DNA of 26,346 bases. Source: a virus. The stretch is from positions 1 to 26,346 of IMG/VR virus record IMGVR_UViG_3300025099_000116; one strand, written 5' to 3'. The notes beneath the pieces were generated by a model that made no database searches, had not been told where the DNA came from, and worked only from the letters and a program-made list of their open reading frames with translations. The position numbers were made by a program, and so were the translations under genes. Shown piece after piece: positions 14,885-26,346 of this stretch (position 1 is its first letter; each line of letters begins with the position of its first letter).

Positions 14885-16843
14885 ATGGGTGCAATAATAG
14901 AAGTGAAATATTTTAATTCATTTTGGGCTAAGCAAGTTCAAGGTAGTTCATCTTACAACGATCCTAAATGGCCTGGCTTAGATTGGAATCCATATGGTTA
15001 TCCTATTTTTCCTGTAAATGCTACAGACTCTCTTAATAATTTTTATATAGAAGAAGCTAGAATTAAAGGAGGTTTTAACAATGACATGGTTTCACAAGGT
15101 GTGAGAGCTTATTTAAATGAAAAAAACCCTGTTCAAAACATTAGAGAATCTTCATTAATATACTCTGGTGTATATAATTCTAGAACAGACGTAAACGAAA
15201 CAAACGTTTTTTCTGTTGGTAAAACTATAACTAGTAACTTAGATCCAGCAAATGGTAGTATACAAAAACTTTTTGCAGAAGATACTAACTTAGTTATATT
15301 TCAAGAAAACAAAGTTAGTAAGTCTTTAATTAATAAAAACACTATATACTCGGGAACTCAAGGAGCCGCTGAAACACCTGACATATTAGTTATAGGTCAA
15401 AATGTTCCTTTTCTAGGTAGATTTGGTATTGGCAAAAACCCTGAGTCATTTGCTCAATATGGTTTTAGAAAATATTTTGCAGATCCTATTAGAGGGTCTA
15501 TTATTAGGCTATCTAGAGATGGTTTAACTGAGATATCTAACTACGGTATGAAAGATTATTTTAGAGACAGTTTAAGTGCTTTAGATCATAATTATAAAAC
15601 AGAGAATATACAATGGACTTTAGCAGCTAATCCTCCAAGATCTATAAAAGATGGAGAGGAATTACTGGCTGCTAGCCTTAATTTAAGTAATTATACTTTT
15701 TTAAGTGCTGGAACAAGCGCTAATATAACTGTTACTTCTAGCAACACAGGTACAGGTGCTGAAGTAACTGTTACTACTGCTTCTCAATCAGTTGTTCAAG
15801 TCAATACAACCGCAGTTGGCGGTTCTGGTTATATGGTTGGTGATACCGTTGTAGTAACTGGCGATGGTGTTAACTTTAGTGGTTCAATATCTTTTATTTT
15901 AACCTCTAGCGAATTAAATAGTTTGACTGGTGTTCAAAATCCTTTTTATGTACAAGGCGTAAGTAATTGTGATATATTTTTAGGTAGTAAAGTTTTAAAC
16001 TTAAACTCTAGCAACGTTGCTGTTGATACTGGAGCTATAGTAACTAATACTTCTATTGTGCCTGGATCTGATCCAGTTTTGATAGCTGTAACAACTAACA
16101 ACTCAATTACTACAGAAAATTCTGGATTTTTTAGTTACGAATATAAAAGTAAAATAGTTGGTGGTTGGGATAATCATAATAGGTATTATACTGTTTCTTT
16201 ACAGTCCAAGCCGACTTATGTTACTAAAGACACAGACTTTACTACATTGTCATTTGATGATGGTGTTAATGGTTGGGTTAGTAGATATTCTTATAAACCT
16301 GGATTTATAACTAGCTTGAAAGGAAGTTATTTTTCTACATATGAAAATTGTATTTATCAGCATTATTTGTCTAACTCTACTAATACTAATTTTTTAAATT
16401 ATTATGGATTTCTTGGTGATTGTTTTTTAAACTTTACAGTAAACACAAGCCCTTCTGTTAAAAAGAACTTTCAAACTATAAACTATGAAGGTGATAACGG
16501 TTGGAAAATTAGTTCAATTATTAGTGATTCAACAAAATATAATAATAATGGTGTAGGCTTTGTTGATTCAGCAAACATAATACCTAGTTTCAACGAGGGG
16601 TTATATATAGATCCTAATAGTGGCTATCCACAAAGAGCAGGCTTTAGTAGAAAAGAAAATTTATACGTTGCTAATATAAATAATAAATCAACATTAAGTT
16701 TTGAAGAAGTAATAGGTGGAAGTTTTCTTACTGGTATAAAAGGGTATTTAGCAACAGTAGAAATAAGAGTAGACTCATCTACTAATGTTGGTGGACCAAA
16801 AGAAATATGGTCTGTAGGAACTACATTTGTACAATCATCTTAA
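14885..16843 (+). CDS. Second stabilisation-type tail protein with one G-x-G-Y module
   Basis: A 652-residue beta-rich protein that looks like the continuation of the stabilisation-type fold of the preceding gene. Conserved-looking blocks are YIEEARIKGGFNNDMVSQGV (54-73), SLIYSGVYNSRTDVNETNVF (90-109), DPANGSIQKLFAEDTNLVIF (120-139), RYGFRKYF-like QYGFRKYFADP (191-201) and LSRDGLTEISNYGMKDYFRD (209-228). Residues about 281-339 carry the module (GGSGYMVGDTVVV), placed between LNLSNYTFLS and the LTSSELNSL segment. The C-terminal third is beta-rich with VGGWDNHNRYYTVSLQ. No signal peptide, membrane or enzyme motif is visible. It is separated from the previous gene by 38 A/T-rich bases and from the next by 10. 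It may form one assembly with the 1435-residue protein. Confidence 0.7.
   Translation: MGAIIEVKYFNSFWAKQVQGSSSYNDPKWPGLDWNPYGYPIFPVNATDSLNNFYIEEARIKGGFNNDMVSQGVRAYLNEKNPVQNIRESSLIYSGVYNSRTDVNETNVFSVGKTITSNLDPANGSIQKLFAEDTNLVIFQENKVSKSLINKNTIYSGTQGAAETPDILVIGQNVPFLGRFGIGKNPESFAQYGFRKYFADPIRGSIIRLSRDGLTEISNYGMKDYFRDSLSALDHNYKTENIQWTLAANPPRSIKDGEELLAASLNLSNYTFLSAGTSANITVTSSNTGTGAEVTVTTASQSVVQVNTTAVGGSGYMVGDTVVVTGDGVNFSGSISFILTSSELNSLTGVQNPFYVQGVSNCDIFLGSKVLNLNSSNVAVDTGAIVTNTSIVPGSDPVLIAVTTNNSITTENSGFFSYEYKSKIVGGWDNHNRYYTVSLQSKPTYVTKDTDFTTLSFDDGVNGWVSRYSYKPGFITSLKGSYFSTYENCIYQHYLSNSTNTNFLNYYGFLGDCFLNFTVNTSPSVKKNFQTINYEGDNGWKISSIISDSTKYNNNGVGFVDSANIIPSFNEGLYIDPNSGYPQRAGFSRKENLYVANINNKSTLSFEEVIGGSFLTGIKGYLATVEIRVDSSTNVGGPKEIWSVGTTFVQSS
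15725..15901 (+). repeat. G-x-G-Y/GD beta module, copy D (protein-level)
   Basis: Encodes residues about 281-339 of the second stabilisation-type protein: NTGTGAEVTVTT, spacer, VVQVNTTAVG, GSGYMVGDTVVV, then a short strand. It is the most diverged of the four copies but keeps the G-x-G-Y-x-x-G-D core. Confidence 0.5.
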
Positions 16844-19265: not shown

Positions 19266-22200
19266 ATGAATCCAGAAGCTCTACAAGCAGCCTTCCAGTT
19301 ATTCGTTGATACAGGTTATAATGGTACATCAGAAGACTTTGTTAATTTAATAAATACTAATGAAGAAGCTTTGAAGGCATCATTTAATCAATTTGTTGAA
19401 ACAGGTTATAATGGTTCTGAAGAAGACTTTAAAAATTTAGTAGGTGTTTCTGGCGAAATAACAAAACCTAAAAAAGAAAAAGAAGAAATTATCCCTAAAA
19501 AAGAAGAAATTATCTCTGAAGTAGAAACTTTTGATTGGAAGCCTAGCATGTCTGCTAAAGAATATGAAGCTCTTCCACTGATGGATAAAGAAAGAGCTAA
19601 TTGGGAAAAATTTAAAGAAATAGAATTAGGAAAACAAGAAATACAAGTTGTAGAACCAGATGTTACAGTAGATACAGATGCTTTTTCTAGCTTAGAAGAC
19701 ATACCAGATTATGAAGGTTTGACTCAAGGTACTAGTCTAGCTCCTGACAAGGATGGATTATACAATGTTCTCATAGAAGATGTAGTCAAAACTATATCTA
19801 CACCAAGCTTTCCAGGAGAACCTAGTTTTACTAGTGGTGATAAAGTTATAGATAAGCGTAAGGCTAATAAAGAAGAAATGGAAGTGTTGCTTCCTGTTAT
19901 GGATGCTTTACAAAAAGAAGCTTTTAAAAATCTACAAGATTATGGATTTAGTAATGAAAATGCTTTAGGCTCTGATACTTATACTATATCTACAGAGCAA
20001 CATGCTGTAATAAAAGATAGTATTTATGATAAATTTGTAAAAAAAGCAGGTATACCTATTGATAAAGGTTCTTTTGATTTTTTATATAATGAAACTATTG
20101 TAGATAATAAAGACCAAGTAGAAAGAGATTATAAATCAAATAGAATAAGACCTGAGTCTACTGAAGTTTCACCTGAGTTTAAGGAGATATTTGTTTTAGA
20201 AGCTGACAAAGGCAAAAGTGAAGTAGAACTTGCTAGTGATAGTTTAAAAGCTAAACAATTTGAAATAACTAAAGAATTAAACAATATAAATAATGTTTTA
20301 ATTCCTCAAGCTGTTAATAGAACAGTTGATAAAGATGAATCTTCTACAAAAAGAAATCGTCAGCTAGACGATTTAAACAAAAGAAAGATAGAACTAGAAA
20401 ACGATTATAAAGATCTTGATAAAGCTATAGAGCAAAATGCTACAAGTACTAAAGTAATAGGTGGTTGGATGCCTGGAGATCCTTTATCTTTCCAAGGAAA
20501 ACCTAGAACTTACAAGGAAATAAACGAAGAGTTAAACTCTAAGTTTTTTAATATGCAAGGTAGAAGTAAAGAGTCTACAAAAAAATTAAATAAAGTATCT
20601 CAAGATGTTGAGAATACAGCAGGTGTTAGGGCTCAAAACTTAATAAATGAAAACCCAGCTTTATCTCAAAGAGAAGCTGTAGAGCAATTGTTTAACGATG
20701 AGCTTTTGTATTTACAACAGTTTGAAGCTGATGGTAGAAATAGTTTTGTTAATTTAAAATTTACACCAGAGCAACTTTCAGGTGGTAATCCAATGGGAGC
20801 AAAAGTGTTAAGAGCTTTAGACGCAAATGGACTAAAAGATAACATAGATAACAACGGTAATATAAATATATCTCTATATGATTTAAGAGCTGCTGGTATT
20901 GATTCTAGAAACTTTGAAGGTTACTTTGATGAATTAGCTAATTTAATAAGTGATAAAGATCTTAACGCTGTTAAAATGTACAATGAAGAGGTTGATGAAG
21001 TAACTGTAGCAGCTAGAACTTTTAGAAATTTAGCTATAAACAACGTAGATGTTGGAGCTATAGAAAAACCTGATGGTTTTGTTAATCTTCTACAAACTGG
21101 AGCTGTTGCTACTTTGGAAACTTTAGGTATGAACAAGAGTGAAGCTGAAGAATTTTTAACAGGTACAACTGAAGGGACGGCTAGAACTCAAATAGATAAT
21201 TTAGATAGAGCTATAAAAACTGCTAATAACACACCTGATATACAAGCATCAATGGGTGGTAAAATAGAATTAACAGAAGATCAGAAAGAAAACATATCTA
21301 TGAGCATGACAGAAGAAGTTACTTCTGGAATAGGTGGTTTTGTGCCTGACTTAATGATATTAGGCGCTACTGGAGGCGTTATGAATGCTATGGGTTATGC
21401 TAAGTTAATTAGTAAAATGTCACCTATGGCTAAGTTTATAACCGGAGCTGTTGTTGAAGAAGCTAAGATGCAAACAATACTAGATATGAAACCTGGTGGT
21501 GGTGCTACTTTTTATACTTTAGGTGCAGCAACAAGCGGTATAAAACTTAAAGGGGCATTCGCGTGGTTAGATCCTTTGTTTCAAAAAGTTATAAAAGCCG
21601 GACCAATTGGAGCTATATCAGCTGAAGGAGCTGGAGTTGCAGAACTAGCTTATGAAAGCTTTATGGGTGATAAAAACTTTAAAGCAGAGTTCGATGAGAT
21701 GTATAAAGACTTTAGCACAGTATCAAGAAGAGCTATTGTTAATAGTATGGTCTTTGGTTTAACGGGTTTTACACACGTTAAAAGAGGGGACTTCATGACT
21801 ACTCAAAGAAAGTATGAAGTTATTTCTGAATTAAAAAACGAAGTTAATAACTTGATGGGGCAAAAGTTAGACTTTGTTGATGGTTTTTCTAGTGAATTAA
21901 AAGTAGATAAAGATGGTGTTGTAATTCCAGACCAATTAAAGCCTAAAAAACAATTTAAAGATTTATCACCAAAAGATCAAAAGAAATTTGCAGAGTATAC
22001 TCAAAGAATACAAACTTTAAATCAAGAGATACAAGCTCAAACTATGCATCATAAGTTAGATCCTAATTCTAAAAACTTTGAAAAAGACTTTGATAAAATG
22101 ATTACAGAGCCTATGAATAGAGCTATGAAATCTCTTGTACCAAATTTTGAAGGTGTTAAAGTTAAGTTTGGTAGAAGAAGCGATCCTAAAACTCCTATGT

Positions 22201-25200
22201 TTAAAAAGAACTTTGACAGTGCAGAAAACACTGCTCAGTATAATCCTAAGACAAAAGAAATGTTTTTTGACTTAGATGCTTATACGGCTGGTAAACCTCC
22301 TCATGAATTTACACATGTTGCTTTAAACGCTTATCTTGAAGCTAATCCTGGTATGAAATTAAACTTTACTAAAAACTTAGGTAAAGTATTTGAAGGATTT
22401 GACTTTGGTGAATTTGAAGGAACTGAGCTAGCTAAAAGAATTAAAGAAAGATATAATATAGATCTTAGAACATGGAAAGGTAAGAACTTAGCAGCTGAAG
22501 AATACTTAGCTTTTATGGGTGAATTTTTAGCTGATCCAAAAGTTTATTACAGCAACCCAGACTTAGCATCTACTTTCATGAATCAAGTTAGATTAGAAGT
22601 TAAAGACTTTCTTGTTGAGGCTGGCTTAAAAACACCTAATGTTAAAACAGCTAAAGATGTAGTTCAACTACTAGGCATGATAGGTGAGAAAACTAGAATG
22701 GGTGGAAGGTTTGAAGTTAAAATGCAAACACTTGCTAAGTTAGATGAAATAGATGTAATAGGCGCAGAACTAGTTAAAGCCAATAGAGAAGCTGAAGGTA
22801 AAAAAGTAGCTTCTAAAGATTTAACAGAAGATATTAAAGTTACAGATCTTAAAGCTAACGTTAAAAGTATATCTAAAGAAAATGTAAATAAAGCTAAAAA
22901 AACAGTTCAAAAACTAGTTGAAAAAGCAGGTGGAGATATAGATAGAAATCTAACTAAAAAAGAAAAAGATATATTTAATAAAGAGATAGAGTTCATGTCC
23001 TTAGACGCTTTAGGCTTTAGAAAAGATATTGGAATACCTGGAAAAGTTAAAATACCAGCTTCAGAAGCAATATCTTATGCTAATCAGTTTTTACCAGGTA
23101 TATTAAGAAGATATAAAAAAACAGATGCTAGTGGTAAAACTAGACAGTTTTCTACATTATTTTACAGTAACATAAAACCAAAAAGACAAGCCTTTTATGG
23201 TAAACAAGAAAAATTAAGCGAATTAGGAAAGCAGGAAAGACTAAGTGATGTAGATACAGAAGGAAGAGAAAAGCGTGATATAGTTTCAAAAGAAGCAACG
23301 CCAGAAGAAGCTATTATAGCTTCAGAAGAAAGAAAAGCTAAAGTAACTCCAAAGTCTAAAATAACTAGAGACTTTCCAGAGATATTTACTGAAGATTTAA
23401 AAAATGAAATTGATAAAGGCTTATTAGAAATATTTGAAGGAGAAATACCAGGTGTCGAAACAAAAGAATTTAAAAGCTTTATAACAGAAGCATCGAGAAG
23501 TAAGTTAACTAATAAAGTTAAAAAAGCTTTAGGCGGAGGTAAAAACTATGAATTTTCTATTAAGAAAATGTCAGAAAAAATGAAGGAAACTTTAGATCCT
23601 AGATTCTTTGTTAGATTAGAAAGTCAAACCAAACCTGAAAATAGAATATTTACCAAACCACCTAGGCGTTTAACTAAGCAAACTGAAATTGATGCAGCTA
23701 TGCTTAACGATAAAGTGTATGTGGAAAATACTGCTCAAGGCGTGAATATATACGAGTTTAAAGATTTTACTCCAAAACAATTATCAGATTATATATTAGC
23801 GCCAACTATAAGTCCTACCACCGGAGCTAAGAGTGGATTAAGAGGTACTAGAAAAACAGCCTTTGCAGAAGGTTTAGTTGATAGATTAACTAGAGATGCT
23901 ACTCCACAAAACTTAAAAAGAATAGGTAAAGAACCTAAAGAGATAGCTGAAATAAGTAAGAAAATGCAAGTTGATCCGTCAACTACAATGGCTTCTAAAG
24001 ATTTAACAAGAAAATACAATACAGAAAATCCAAATAAAAAAGTATCAGAAAAAGAAGTAGAAAAAGTTATTGGTGAGTTTTTAAAGGGTGGAAAAGAAAT
24101 GGAGGAAGCAGCTATAAACAATCCAGAGCTTGGAGAGTTTATTAACGATACTTACTTTAATGTTTTAGAAGGTTCGCAGCCAAAAGTAAAAAGCTCTGGC
24201 TACATTAACCAAGTTAGAAATAAAGTTTTAAATAAAGAAAATTTAAATGCAATATCTAAAAACCTTGATGTTCCTGTAGAAACTTTAAAACCTATATTAG
24301 AAAAAATAGTAAATCAAGAAAGTTTCTTCTATACGGAAGATAAATTACCTCAAGTAAGACAACAAGAACTTTTAGAATTTCAATCAAGTATTATAGATTT
24401 TGCTGAAAATACTTTTCCAAAAGAAATTATTGATGCTTTAACAAGTAAGCAAATAGAACAGCTTGTTGGATACGCAGAGAAAACATCTGGAAAAGGTGGA
24501 GAGTCTAAAGGAATTATTGATGCTTTAAAAATAGATAATCAAAGTTTTAAAAAAGGCCTTAAAAACAACAAAAGTTTAAAAGAAAACAAAATATTATCTA
24601 ATGAAACGAAAGAACTTATAAAAGATGTTGATTGGAAAAGTATAAAAGTTCAAAATGTAACCGGTCAATTTAAAAGTTACAATGAAAAATTAAGAAAAGG
24701 AGAATTAATAACTAAATCAGAAAAAGAAGCGGCTTATCCTAAGATAGACGCAGAAAATTATAGAAAAGCTCAAGAAGCAATATCTGCAATGAAGAAAGAC
24801 TATTTAAATTCCAAGAAAAATAATTTAAAAAGTCTAGAAAAAGGAATTAACTTTATATGGAACCTAGGAAGAGCTAATACTAGTATGATAGCTGGGCAAA
24901 GAGGTTTAATACCAATGGAATTTGTTTATAGACCTGAAGGTTTTCAAACTATGGATAAAAGAAATCCTTTATGGAAAAAAGCATATGATAAAGCAGTTGA
25001 AGAAGCTAAATTAAATCCTAAAAAATTAATTAAAAAAGTTGGTCCAGATTATACTTTAGATCAGTATGCTACTTGGAAAGCTAACGAGTTTGCTAAAATG
25101 AAAGGAGAGCATTTTAATCCAAGTGCTGGAGAGTCAGCTTCTGAAGTATTAGGCATTTTAAAAGGTGAGTTTGAAGCTCGAACAAGTGAAAGTATTCTTA

Positions 25201-26346
25201 GCAATGTACAAGGTTTAATACCTAAAGGTTTATTAAACAAAGTAGATGCTGCTTTTGGCCCTACAGCTAGCTATGGTACAAAAAGATTTGCATTAAAAGA
25301 ATTAAAAGATTATTTAAAAGAAACTGTAAATAGTAAAGGAGAAAATTTATATAATATAGTTTTAGAACAAGCTAGAAATGAAATATTAAGTACTGAAGGT
25401 CTTAAAGAATTATTTACTAATAAAAAAAGCATAGATAATATAAACATTGCTACAGAAGTTTTTAAATACGCAATTAATCCAACTACGGCAAATAAATTGC
25501 TTTTAGAAACAGCAAAAAATAATTTAAAAGCAAATACCGAAGTAAGAAATCAAAATATAGAAGTAGCTAAGGAAGCTTCTATGGCTAGTAAAGATTTAAC
25601 GCAAAGTGAAATGCTTAATGAGCTTAACAAAAGAGATAAAGCTTTTAGATTAGCTAATGAGCGTGATAAAACTATTAAGAAGGCTAGAGTATTTGATTTT
25701 GACGATACTATAGCTAGGAGTAAAAGTAAAGTATTCGCAGAGAGAGATGGTAAAAGAAAAACGCTAACAGCTGAGGAGTTTGCTAAACAAGGTGAAAAAC
25801 TAATTTCAGAAGGCTGGAAAATGGATTTTACAGATTTTAACAAAGTTGTTGAAGGCAAGAAAGGTCCTTTGTTTGATTTAATCAAAACAATGAAAGAAGC
25901 TAAAGGTGAAAGAGATATATTTATTCTTACAGCTAGAGCACCTGAATCTCAAAAAGCTATTTATGAATTTATGAAAGCTATGGGTGTTGAAATACCTTTA
26001 GAAAACATAACAGGTTTGGGTAAGTCAAGTGGCCAAGCAAAAGCTGATTGGATAATAGACAAAGCTTCTGAAGGTTACAATGATTTCTTTTTTGCAGACG
26101 ATGCGCCACAAAATGTTAAAGCAGTTCAAGAAGGTATGTCTCGTCTTGATGTTAAATCTAAAACTCAATTAGTTAAAGCTTCTAAAGATTTAAAAATAGA
26201 CTCTGAAAGAGATAAGAAAAAATTAAATTGGAAAACAGATGAAGCTGGTAATATAAAAACTACTTTTGAAGTAGCTGGTAAAAAATATAATTTTAATTTA
26301 GATGCTAGAGATAATAAAGGAAGTTTTGATGTAGAATTTAATTTAG
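19266..26346 (+). CDS. Giant multidomain (polyvalent-type) virion protein, 3'-partial
   Basis: An uninterrupted frame of 2360 codons that leaves the window. Order of parts: two 30-residue tandem repeats (5-60, core GYNGTSEDF/GYNGSEEDF); charged, mostly helical region to ~680; hydrophobic Gly/Ala-rich stretch (687-735, then more to ~840) suggesting membrane interaction; a zinc-metallopeptidase-like domain with HEFTH (1013-1017) and a likely third ligand in AAEEYLAF (E1078/E1079); two long helical segments of unknown role; then a HAD phosphatase domain with DFDDT (2144-2148), ILTAR (T2222), K2259 in GQAKADWI and FADD (2276-2279). The motif ASKDL occurs at 1182, 1576, 2107 and 2305, between these parts. 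Giant virion proteins of this type are injected with phage DNA. Starts 12 bases after the previous stop, no Shine-Dalgarno. Enzyme activities are predicted from motifs only. Confidence 0.85.
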   Translation, partial: MNPEALQAAFQLFVDTGYNGTSEDFVNLINTNEEALKASFNQFVETGYNGSEEDFKNLVGVSGEITKPKKEKEEIIPKKEEIISEVETFDWKPSMSAKEYEALPLMDKERANWEKFKEIELGKQEIQVVEPDVTVDTDAFSSLEDIPDYEGLTQGTSLAPDKDGLYNVLIEDVVKTISTPSFPGEPSFTSGDKVIDKRKANKEEMEVLLPVMDALQKEAFKNLQDYGFSNENALGSDTYTISTEQHAVIKDSIYDKFVKKAGIPIDKGSFDFLYNETIVDNKDQVERDYKSNRIRPESTEVSPEFKEIFVLEADKGKSEVELASDSLKAKQFEITKELNNINNVLIPQAVNRTVDKDESSTKRNRQLDDLNKRKIELENDYKDLDKAIEQNATSTKVIGGWMPGDPLSFQGKPRTYKEINEELNSKFFNMQGRSKESTKKLNKVSQDVENTAGVRAQNLINENPALSQREAVEQLFNDELLYLQQFEADGRNSFVNLKFTPEQLSGGNPMGAKVLRALDANGLKDNIDNNGNINISLYDLRAAGIDSRNFEGYFDELANLISDKDLNAVKMYNEEVDEVTVAARTFRNLAINNVDVGAIEKPDGFVNLLQTGAVATLETLGMNKSEAEEFLTGTTEGTARTQIDNLDRAIKTANNTPDIQASMGGKIELTEDQKENISMSMTEEVTSGIGGFVPDLMILGATGGVMNAMGYAKLISKMSPMAKFITGAVVEEAKMQTILDMKPGGGATFYTLGAATSGIKLKGAFAWLDPLFQKVIKAGPIGAISAEGAGVAELAYESFMGDKNFKAEFDEMYKDFSTVSRRAIVNSMVFGLTGFTHVKRGDFMTTQRKYEVISELKNEVNNLMGQKLDFVDGFSSELKVDKDGVVIPDQLKPKKQFKDLSPKDQKKFAEYTQRIQTLNQEIQAQTMHHKLDPNSKNFEKDFDKMITEPMNRAMKSLVPNFEGVKVKFGRRSDPKTPMFKKNFDSAENTAQYNPKTKEMFFDLDAYTAGKPPHEFTHVALNAYLEANPGMKLNFTKNLGKVFEGFDFGEFEGTELAKRIKERYNIDLRTWKGKNLAAEEYLAFMGEFLADPKVYYSNPDLASTFMNQVRLEVKDFLVEAGLKTPNVKTAKDVVQLLGMIGEKTRMGGRFEVKMQTLAKLDEIDVIGAELVKANREAEGKKVASKDLTEDIKVTDLKANVKSISKENVNKAKKTVQKLVEKAGGDIDRNLTKKEKDIFNKEIEFMSLDALGFRKDIGIPGKVKIPASEAISYANQFLPGILRRYKKTDASGKTRQFSTLFYSNIKPKRQAFYGKQEKLSELGKQERLSDVDTEGREKRDIVSKEATPEEAIIASEERKAKVTPKSKITRDFPEIFTEDLKNEIDKGLLEIFEGEIPGVETKEFKSFITEASRSKLTNKVKKALGGGKNYEFSIKKMSEKMKETLDPRFFVRLESQTKPENRIFTKPPRRLTKQTEIDAAMLNDKVYVENTAQGVNIYEFKDFTPKQLSDYILAPTISPTTGAKSGLRGTRKTAFAEGLVDRLTRDATPQNLKRIGKEPKEIAEISKKMQVDPSTTMASKDLTRKYNTENPNKKVSEKEVEKVIGEFLKGGKEMEEAAINNPELGEFINDTYFNVLEGSQPKVKSSGYINQVRNKVLNKENLNAISKNLDVPVETLKPILEKIVNQESFFYTEDKLPQVRQQELLEFQSSIIDFAENTFPKEIIDALTSKQIEQLVGYAEKTSGKGGESKGIIDALKIDNQSFKKGLKNNKSLKENKILSNETKELIKDVDWKSIKVQNVTGQFKSYNEKLRKGELITKSEKEAAYPKIDAENYRKAQEAISAMKKDYLNSKKNNLKSLEKGINFIWNLGRANTSMIAGQRGLIPMEFVYRPEGFQTMDKRNPLWKKAYDKAVEEAKLNPKKLIKKVGPDYTLDQYATWKANEFAKMKGEHFNPSAGESASEVLGILKGEFEARTSESILSNVQGLIPKGLLNKVDAAFGPTASYGTKRFALKELKDYLKETVNSKGENLYNIVLEQARNEILSTEGLKELFTNKKSIDNINIATEVFKYAINPTTANKLLLETAKNNLKANTEVRNQNIEVAKEASMASKDLTQSEMLNELNKRDKAFRLANERDKTIKKARVFDFDDTIARSKSKVFAERDGKRKTLTAEEFAKQGEKLISEGWKMDFTDFNKVVEGKKGPLFDLIKTMKEAKGERDIFILTARAPESQKAIYEFMKAMGVEIPLENITGLGKSSGQAKADWIIDKASEGYNDFFFADDAPQNVKAVQEGMSRLDVKSKTQLVKASKDLKIDSERDKKKLNWKTDEAGNIKTTFEVAGKKYNFNLDARDNKGSFDVEFNL
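19278..19445 (+). repeat. Two 90-base tandem repeats encoding 30-residue units
   Basis: Residues 5-34 and 35-60 of the giant protein share the pattern A-L-x-A-x-F-x-x-F-V-[DE]-T-G-Y-N-G-x-x-E-D-F-x-N-L. The period is exactly 30 residues, and the DNA copies differ at many third positions (for example TTC versus TTT), so the duplication is old and kept at protein level. Confidence 0.8.
22809..22826 (+). repeat. ASKDLT motif, copy 1 (residues 1182-1187)
   Basis: DNA GCTTCTAAAGATTTAACA. It lies about 165 residues after the HEFTH motif, in a Lys/Glu-rich linker beyond the peptidase-like domain. Confidence 0.75.
23991..24008 (+). repeat. ASKDLT motif, copy 2 (residues 1576-1581)
   Basis: Preceded by Met (MASKDLT), in a Lys-rich linker that ends the first unknown segment. 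Identical DNA to copy 1 over 18 bases (GCTTCTAAAGATTTAACA). Confidence 0.75.
25584..25601 (+). repeat. ASKDLT motif, copy 3 (residues 2107-2112)
   Basis: Again preceded by Met (MASKDLT) and 32 residues before the HAD DFDDT motif. The serine codon is AGT and threonine ACG, unlike copies 1 and 2, so the match is conserved at protein level rather than being a fresh DNA copy. Confidence 0.75.
26178..26195 (+). repeat. ASKDL motif, copy 4 (residues 2305-2310)
   Basis: ASKDLK, 26 residues after the FADD motif that ends the HAD active site; T is replaced by K. Together with copy 3 it brackets the HAD domain at a distance of 198 residues. A GKKYNFNLDARDNKG beta segment begins shortly after it. Confidence 0.65.

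Follow-up and report, generated by a model that had tools for sequence, protein, structure and literature searches.

The 26,346-nucleotide stretch of viral DNA analyzed here (the window; positions 1 to 26,346 of the IMG/VR record IMGVR_UViG_3300025099_000116) ends within a giant open reading frame (ORF) whose product carries the pentapeptide ASKDL four times, which raises the question of what such a repeat could be doing in a single phage protein. The original prediction took the copies for processing sites or domain-joining linkers of a polyprotein, possibly cut by a metallopeptidase-like domain of the same chain. Judging from sequence comparisons, we find it moderately probable that they are recognition and, as we infer, cleavage sites of a self-processed polyprotein that is cut by the zincin of its own chain.

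Giant protein and its ASKDL copies

19266..26346, + strand: giant ORF, 2360 codons within the window, 3' end open; last gene of the virion-structure module

The placement of this gene in the structural module is based on synteny with the structural modules of elemovirus, phi38:1, and MW202828. An identical complete version of it (3144 codons, 3144 aa) is found on another contig, L002; residues are numbered here from the Met of the window ORF. From its N terminus onward, the chain comprises ∼950 residues, the zincin-like region, copy 1, a further region, copy 2, another region, and copy 3. In L002, copy 3 is followed by the HAD domain, copy 4, a GNAT-fold domain, a fifth copy, and a conserved C-terminal domain of ∼670 residues. 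No Pfam family was reached at the cutoff by the zincin and the other domains of the giant protein, nor was a Pfam match found for the middle domains of nine relatives; no RNA polymerase domain was recognized by Pfam or PHROG in the 2360 residues of the window or in the middle regions of the same nine relatives, and most of the chain matches nothing. A tblastn comparison of the window protein with phage records gave no match, and isolated phages have no close match to it. Near its N terminus (window positions 19281-19445, residues ∼6-60), a unit is present in two tandem copies, AAFQLFVDTGYNGTSEDFVNLI and ASFNQFVETGYNGSEEDFKNLV, and the giant protein of MW202828 likewise begins with a repeated unit (TAHSLFE); the tandem unit is possibly a virion-targeting element.

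Three structural proteins of the window, the terminase (66% identical to MW202828), the portal, and the capsid protein, have their matches in Flavobacteriaceae podophages, namely, elemoviruses, Pervagoviridae (phi38:1), Pachyviridae (phi46:3 and Gundel_1), and Maribacter phage Panino, and the host is therefore probably a marine member of the Bacteroidota. In several of these podophages, a giant gene ends the structural module, and the C-terminal domain of the giant protein is distantly related to gp74 of Gundel_1, which is annotated as “structural protein.” Other relatives of this domain are encoded on short contigs (L109 to L112) binned as Caldiserica, Flavobacteriaceae, Maricaulis, and an actinobacterium, which are probably phage contigs and not evidence of the host. 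A 652-aa protein encoded at positions 14885-16843 of the window strongly matches the phage structural family phrog_14478, which is also matched by the preceding 1435-aa protein; its match to crAss_MUZ_C, the C-terminal domain of the crassvirus muzzle, is below the cutoff. With regard to the Crassvirales, the terminase, portal, and capsid proteins match the above podophages instead.

The ASKDL copies are located as follows.

22809..22823, + strand: ASKDL copy 1, residue 1182 (HExxH +169), family-wide seam directly C-terminal of the zincin
23991..24005, + strand: ASKDL copy 2, residue 1576 (HExxH +563), second family-wide seam
25584..25598, + strand: ASKDL copy 3 at residue 2107, with its serine encoded by AGT, seam on the N-terminal side of HAD
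26178..26192, + strand: ASKDL copy 4 at residue 2305, seam that joins HAD to the inserted domain

All four copies are found where the original prediction had put them, and its details also proved accurate: three copies read ASKDLT and the last one ASKDLK, and the Ser codon of copy 3 (AGT) differs from that of the other copies (TCT). The fifth copy, at residue 2475 of L002, lies in NLASKDLSREFNNLIEE. A degenerate DNA pattern for ASKDL has four matches in the window, all of them within the giant ORF, against 0.11 expected, and a 5-mer repeated four times was obtained in only 1 of 2000 shuffles of the giant protein. That the copies sit at domain joins, as had been claimed, agrees with two AF2 models, in which copies 1, 4, and 5 lie in or at the edge of low-confidence segments (pLDDT <50) and copy 3 lies between two helices; a helix begins directly after the post-HAD copy. 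Internal translation starts (an ATG stands ahead of copies 2 and 3) were rejected as a general explanation, since copies 1 and 4 have no such ATG. A literature search among open-licence papers found no earlier report of an ASKDL-type motif.

The domains around copies 3 and 4 are as follows.

25680..26171, + strand: HAD-superfamily hydrolase domain, residues ∼2139-2302 (phrog_415, “polynucleotide kinase,” E value 4e-9; AF2 model)
26232..26346, + strand: start of an inserted domain with a GNAT-like acetyltransferase fold, residues ∼2323-2448, complete in L002

The phrog_415 match, which extends over residues 2131-2318, and the AF2 model both bear out the claim that copies 3 and 4 bracket the HAD domain; Pfam HAD matches in the relatives are weak. 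For the GNAT-like insert, the best Foldseek match is to a spermidine N-acetyltransferase (E value 2.9e-4), and in L002 this insert is flanked on either side by DVKS(K/N)TQ...ASKDL. The giant chain and its relatives together thus contain several unrelated domains: a zincin-type motif, the HAD domain, the GNAT-fold insert, and P-loop kinase inserts. The latter are represented by eight relatives of the A5 set that match P-loop kinase families (AAA_33/Zeta_toxin), reminiscent of the parts of a split polynucleotide kinase-phosphatase. Some relatives of the same set in which HAD and the anchor are far apart (e.g., L068, L090, L101, L310, L314, and L317) have ∼200 extra residues in the HAD region and no GNAT domain.

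Seam spellings among the relatives

The relatives comprise 324 proteins from marine viral contigs, all metagenomic and some of them from incomplete contigs, which were reduced to 200 nonredundant proteins. Motif copies remain in register in close relatives, and the literal ASKDL is usually absent from the 200 proteins, which tend to repeat spellings of their own at the corresponding seams, such as TSEKM, NSKNL, QAKDI, ASNK, FSKS, and others. Both HAD-flanking copies read TSEKM in L005 and NSKNL in L014, and two copies in L016 read ASERL. An invariant Asn served as the alignment anchor for the post-HAD site, and the 4-mer that opens this site recurs in its own protein 71 times in the set of 200, versus 16.6 times for the spellings of other proteins and 13.7 times for shuffles; all five residues recur 15 times, versus 1.2 and 1.5 times, respectively, and a flexible site definition yields 75 recurrences versus 13.7 and 11.0. 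The exact copies span 32 spellings, and other conserved positions given the same treatment recur at no more than 2.25 times the shuffle value. Because an exact second copy of the 4-mer is found in only 56 of the 200 proteins, many sites must be looser than those of the window, so the code is loose or some of the seams are unused. As for the original expectation that homologs would share the motif, it failed for the letters ASKDL in most of them, but many repeat their own spelling at the same seams, which supports a recognition site more strongly than retention of the letters would have done.

The positions of these recurrences along the chain were located by scanning each protein for its own spelling. 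Peaks were seen at HExxH +140 to +200, the end of the zincin (z = 9.0), at HExxH +540 to +600, within the second seam at about +500 to +640 (z = 6.5), and immediately before HAD (z = 9.3 to 10.1); there was no peak in the N-terminal 800 residues, the zincin, the HAD domain, or the C-terminal domain. Copies 1, 2, and 3 of the window, at +169, +563, and the pre-HAD place, are therefore instances of family-wide seams. The influence of kinship was reduced by pairing nearest relatives that have different spellings, which is a pairing and not a full phylogenetic model. In these contrasts, the protein's own spelling prevailed over that of its partner by 41:7 at the pre-HAD seam (p = 3e-7), 49:17 at the zincin-end seam (p = 5e-5), and 48:8 at the second seam (p = 2e-8), whereas the ratios in control windows were 19:25 and 26:31. 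Of the extra copies, 44% have a homology break no more than 10 residues away, versus 13% at random.

The inserted domains conform to this pattern in most cases. GNAT-type inserts between HAD and the C-terminal domain are found in L002, L028, L030, L115, and L140, and the linkers that open these inserts resemble the code of the respective protein: KASKDLK in L002, NFSEKK in the TSEKM proteins, and KFSKS in the FSKNL protein. The exception is L115, a QAKDL protein with the linker KFSKE.

The motif is confined to the giant protein: in other ORFs of the same contigs, the own motif was found twice against 3.3 expected, that is, without any excess. Nor was a repeated motif found in the giant proteins of the isolates MW202828, elemoE, phi38:1, phi46:3, Gundel_1, and Panino; three of these (MW202828, elemoE, and Gundel_1) contain HExxH.

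Zincin-like region and competing explanations

22134..22715, + strand: zincin-like metallopeptidase region, residues ∼957-1150, with invariant H, E, and H and a downstream E
22302..22316, + strand: HEFTH, putative zinc-binding/catalytic motif, residues 1013-1017
22500..22502, + strand: Glu1079, putative third zinc ligand of the gluzincin type (AAEEYLAFMGEF), invariant column E327 of alignment A6

The metallopeptidase-like domain that the original prediction had placed in the same chain is present by its sequence signature. In an alignment of 36 relatives, no columns are invariant other than the H, E, and H of the HEFTH motif and a Glu ∼65 residues later. HExxH occupies this place in 187 of the 200 relatives (in the first relative set, 73 of 80 had it, versus 0.5 expected), and some of the others have HExxxH (HEVLGH at residue 948 of L009, HEMVGH at residue 1011 of L091, and HEILGH at residue 1412 of L035), a spacing known as a variant in dipeptidyl peptidase III. 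A Foldseek search with the zincin model returned weak matches, including PprI/IrrE, jannalysin, and selecase, the best of them not significant (E value 0.09) because the model is poor. The giant protein thus appears to carry a zincin-like metallopeptidase domain, as indicated by HExxH and the distal Glu, with predicted activity.

A code that is found in the flexible linkers of one protein, at seams that follow a metallopeptidase, and that changes in a concerted manner has the appearance expected of cleavage sites whose cognate protease drifts. The motif would then be the recognition, and probably the cleavage, site of a processing protease, and the giant ORF would encode a polyprotein, one of the “polyvalent proteins” of phages, with an N-terminal part ending in the zincin, exchangeable cargo domains, and a conserved C-terminal domain. 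The cargo would comprise the two regions between copies 1 and 3, the HAD hydrolase, and sometimes a GNAT or P-loop kinase domain, and the flexible linkers between successive parts of the chain would carry a code of 4 to 5 residues (here, ASKDL). The protease, most likely the in-chain zincin, would read the first four residues of the motif and release the domains either in the virion or in the host cell. A drift of its specificity would make the sites of one protein change together, giving TSEK, NSKN, QAKD, ASNK, FSKS, and other variants, and a newly inserted domain would be kept only if its linker acquired the local code. More broadly, and more tentatively, we suggest that a large group of marine podophages, whose structural genes are related to those of flavobacterial phages, may make a true polyprotein, with the in-chain zincin cutting a four-residue code at the joins, so that protease and sites drift together into a private code for each lineage into which new effector domains can be plugged.

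The association of the spelling with the zincin depends on the data set. Among 72 proteins, the spelling tracks zincin similarity beyond the adjacent domain (partial r of 0.156, p = 0.0005), and the adjacent domain does not track the spelling beyond the zincin (p = 0.19). When 184 proteins and additional control regions were used, the zincin did not stand out as the partner of the spelling, although parsimony requires fewer spelling changes on the zincin tree (135) than on those of other distant regions (141 to 145), and about as many as on that of the adjacent domain (136).

That the zincin does not stand out in the larger set also fits the main rival explanation, which we consider unlikely: the linkers could be nonproteolytic short linear motifs that remain uncut and dock a phage or host factor of drifting specificity, such as a packaging adaptor, an unfolding or ejection factor, or a chaperone. 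Docking accounts equally well for the co-variation, the linker location, and the selection at the protein level, and the phage N4 virion RNA polymerase is packaged uncut despite the presence of a zincin (PMC5512222). However, docking leaves unexplained why the copies fall precisely on the seams between domains, with inserts flanked by them on either side, and why HExxH and the distal Glu are nearly universal; it also has no known candidate partner.

Still less probable is that the sites are cut by another protease, encoded separately by the phage or supplied by the host, and that the zincin acts on a different substrate. In its favor, 7 of the 190 full-length proteins have neither HExxH nor HExxxH and all of them keep S-K-type linkers, two with repeated FSKS, and the zincin-specific signal is weak in the 184-protein set. 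On the other hand, no HExxH was found in other ORFs near the loci of the HExxH-less proteins, in the part of each genome that was covered, and the specificity of a host protease is not expected to shift in step with each phage protein.

An origin at the level of DNA, in which the motif would be a short repeat promoting the shuffling of domains or a product of linker duplication, is quite improbable. The enrichment of copies at homology breaks and the twofold flanking of the L002 GNAT insert would fit it, but the synonymous codons of the copies are as different as independent ones: over all residues of paired copies, the same codon is used in 216 of 360 cases versus 202 expected, and the Ser codon class (TCN or AGY) is discordant in 46 of 100 paired copies versus 47.1 expected under independence. 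The mixed Ser codons of the window point in the same direction. This largely refutes DNA copying or gene conversion as the cause and indicates that selection holds the letters of the protein. The least credible explanation is chance, composition, or a general tendency to place a helix N-cap ahead of each domain: the helix that starts directly after the post-HAD copy and the S/T/D/N residues after the motif, typical of helix starts, would suit an N-cap, but none of these could match four residues within a protein and yet vary them between proteins. The values obtained with shuffles, with cross-protein controls, and at other conserved positions are far lower, and this whole explanation is refuted by the comparisons of own and other spellings.

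Comparison with known systems

Zincin processing of giant phage “polyvalent” proteins has so far been a conjecture without a recognized site. From the co-varying seam code, cut points and the boundaries of the resulting fragments can be predicted for many of the ∼200 proteins, and cargo domains that are otherwise unrecognizable can be delimited. The packing and release of proteins of several thousand residues become directly testable by ordinary expression or mass spectrometry and, if true, a protease-site code that drifts in nature would lend itself well to studies of how protease specificity co-evolves.

Eukaryotic viruses, such as potyvirids and African swine fever virus (pp220), have polyproteins that are cut at repeated sites by a protease which the virus itself encodes. 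The likeness consists in a single chain with several domains, a repeated site code at the joins, and, putatively here, co-evolution of this code with the protease; unlike in those viruses, the protein in question here would be internal to the virion of a tailed phage, and the enzyme, if the in-chain one acts, would be a zincin.

In phage SPN3US (gp245), several internal or ejected proteins are cut at a short motif, AXE, as the head matures (PMC10052503). A short linear motif is common to both cases, with cleavage established in SPN3US and putative here. However, SPN3US uses a separate prohead protease that removes N-terminal propeptides of many proteins, whereas the motif described here occurs in one giant protein, between its domains, and has the form xS[K/E]x without a fixed Glu, unlike an A-x-E motif common to several head proteins.

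P1 DdrB, which is processed before packaging, and the aforementioned N4 RNA polymerase are large internal virion proteins with zincin domains, a description that would fit the giant protein as well, its presence in the virion and delivery into the host with the DNA being putative, with the gene context and the annotation of Gundel_1 gp74 as indirect indications. They differ from it in that no repeated motif is described for them in the consulted passages of that source (PMC5512222), and the giant protein has no recognized RNA polymerase domain.

The closest parallel is with the polyvalent proteins of phages and conjugative elements, for which self-processing by the zincin has been proposed (Iyer et al. 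2017, PMC5512222). Those proteins share with the one described here a giant multidomain chain, a zincin-like peptidase, and unrelated enzymatic domains that vary between relatives. The consulted passages of that work give no recognition sequence for the processing, whereas the giant proteins described here carry, at defined seams, a code that is specific to the lineage and whose copies change together.
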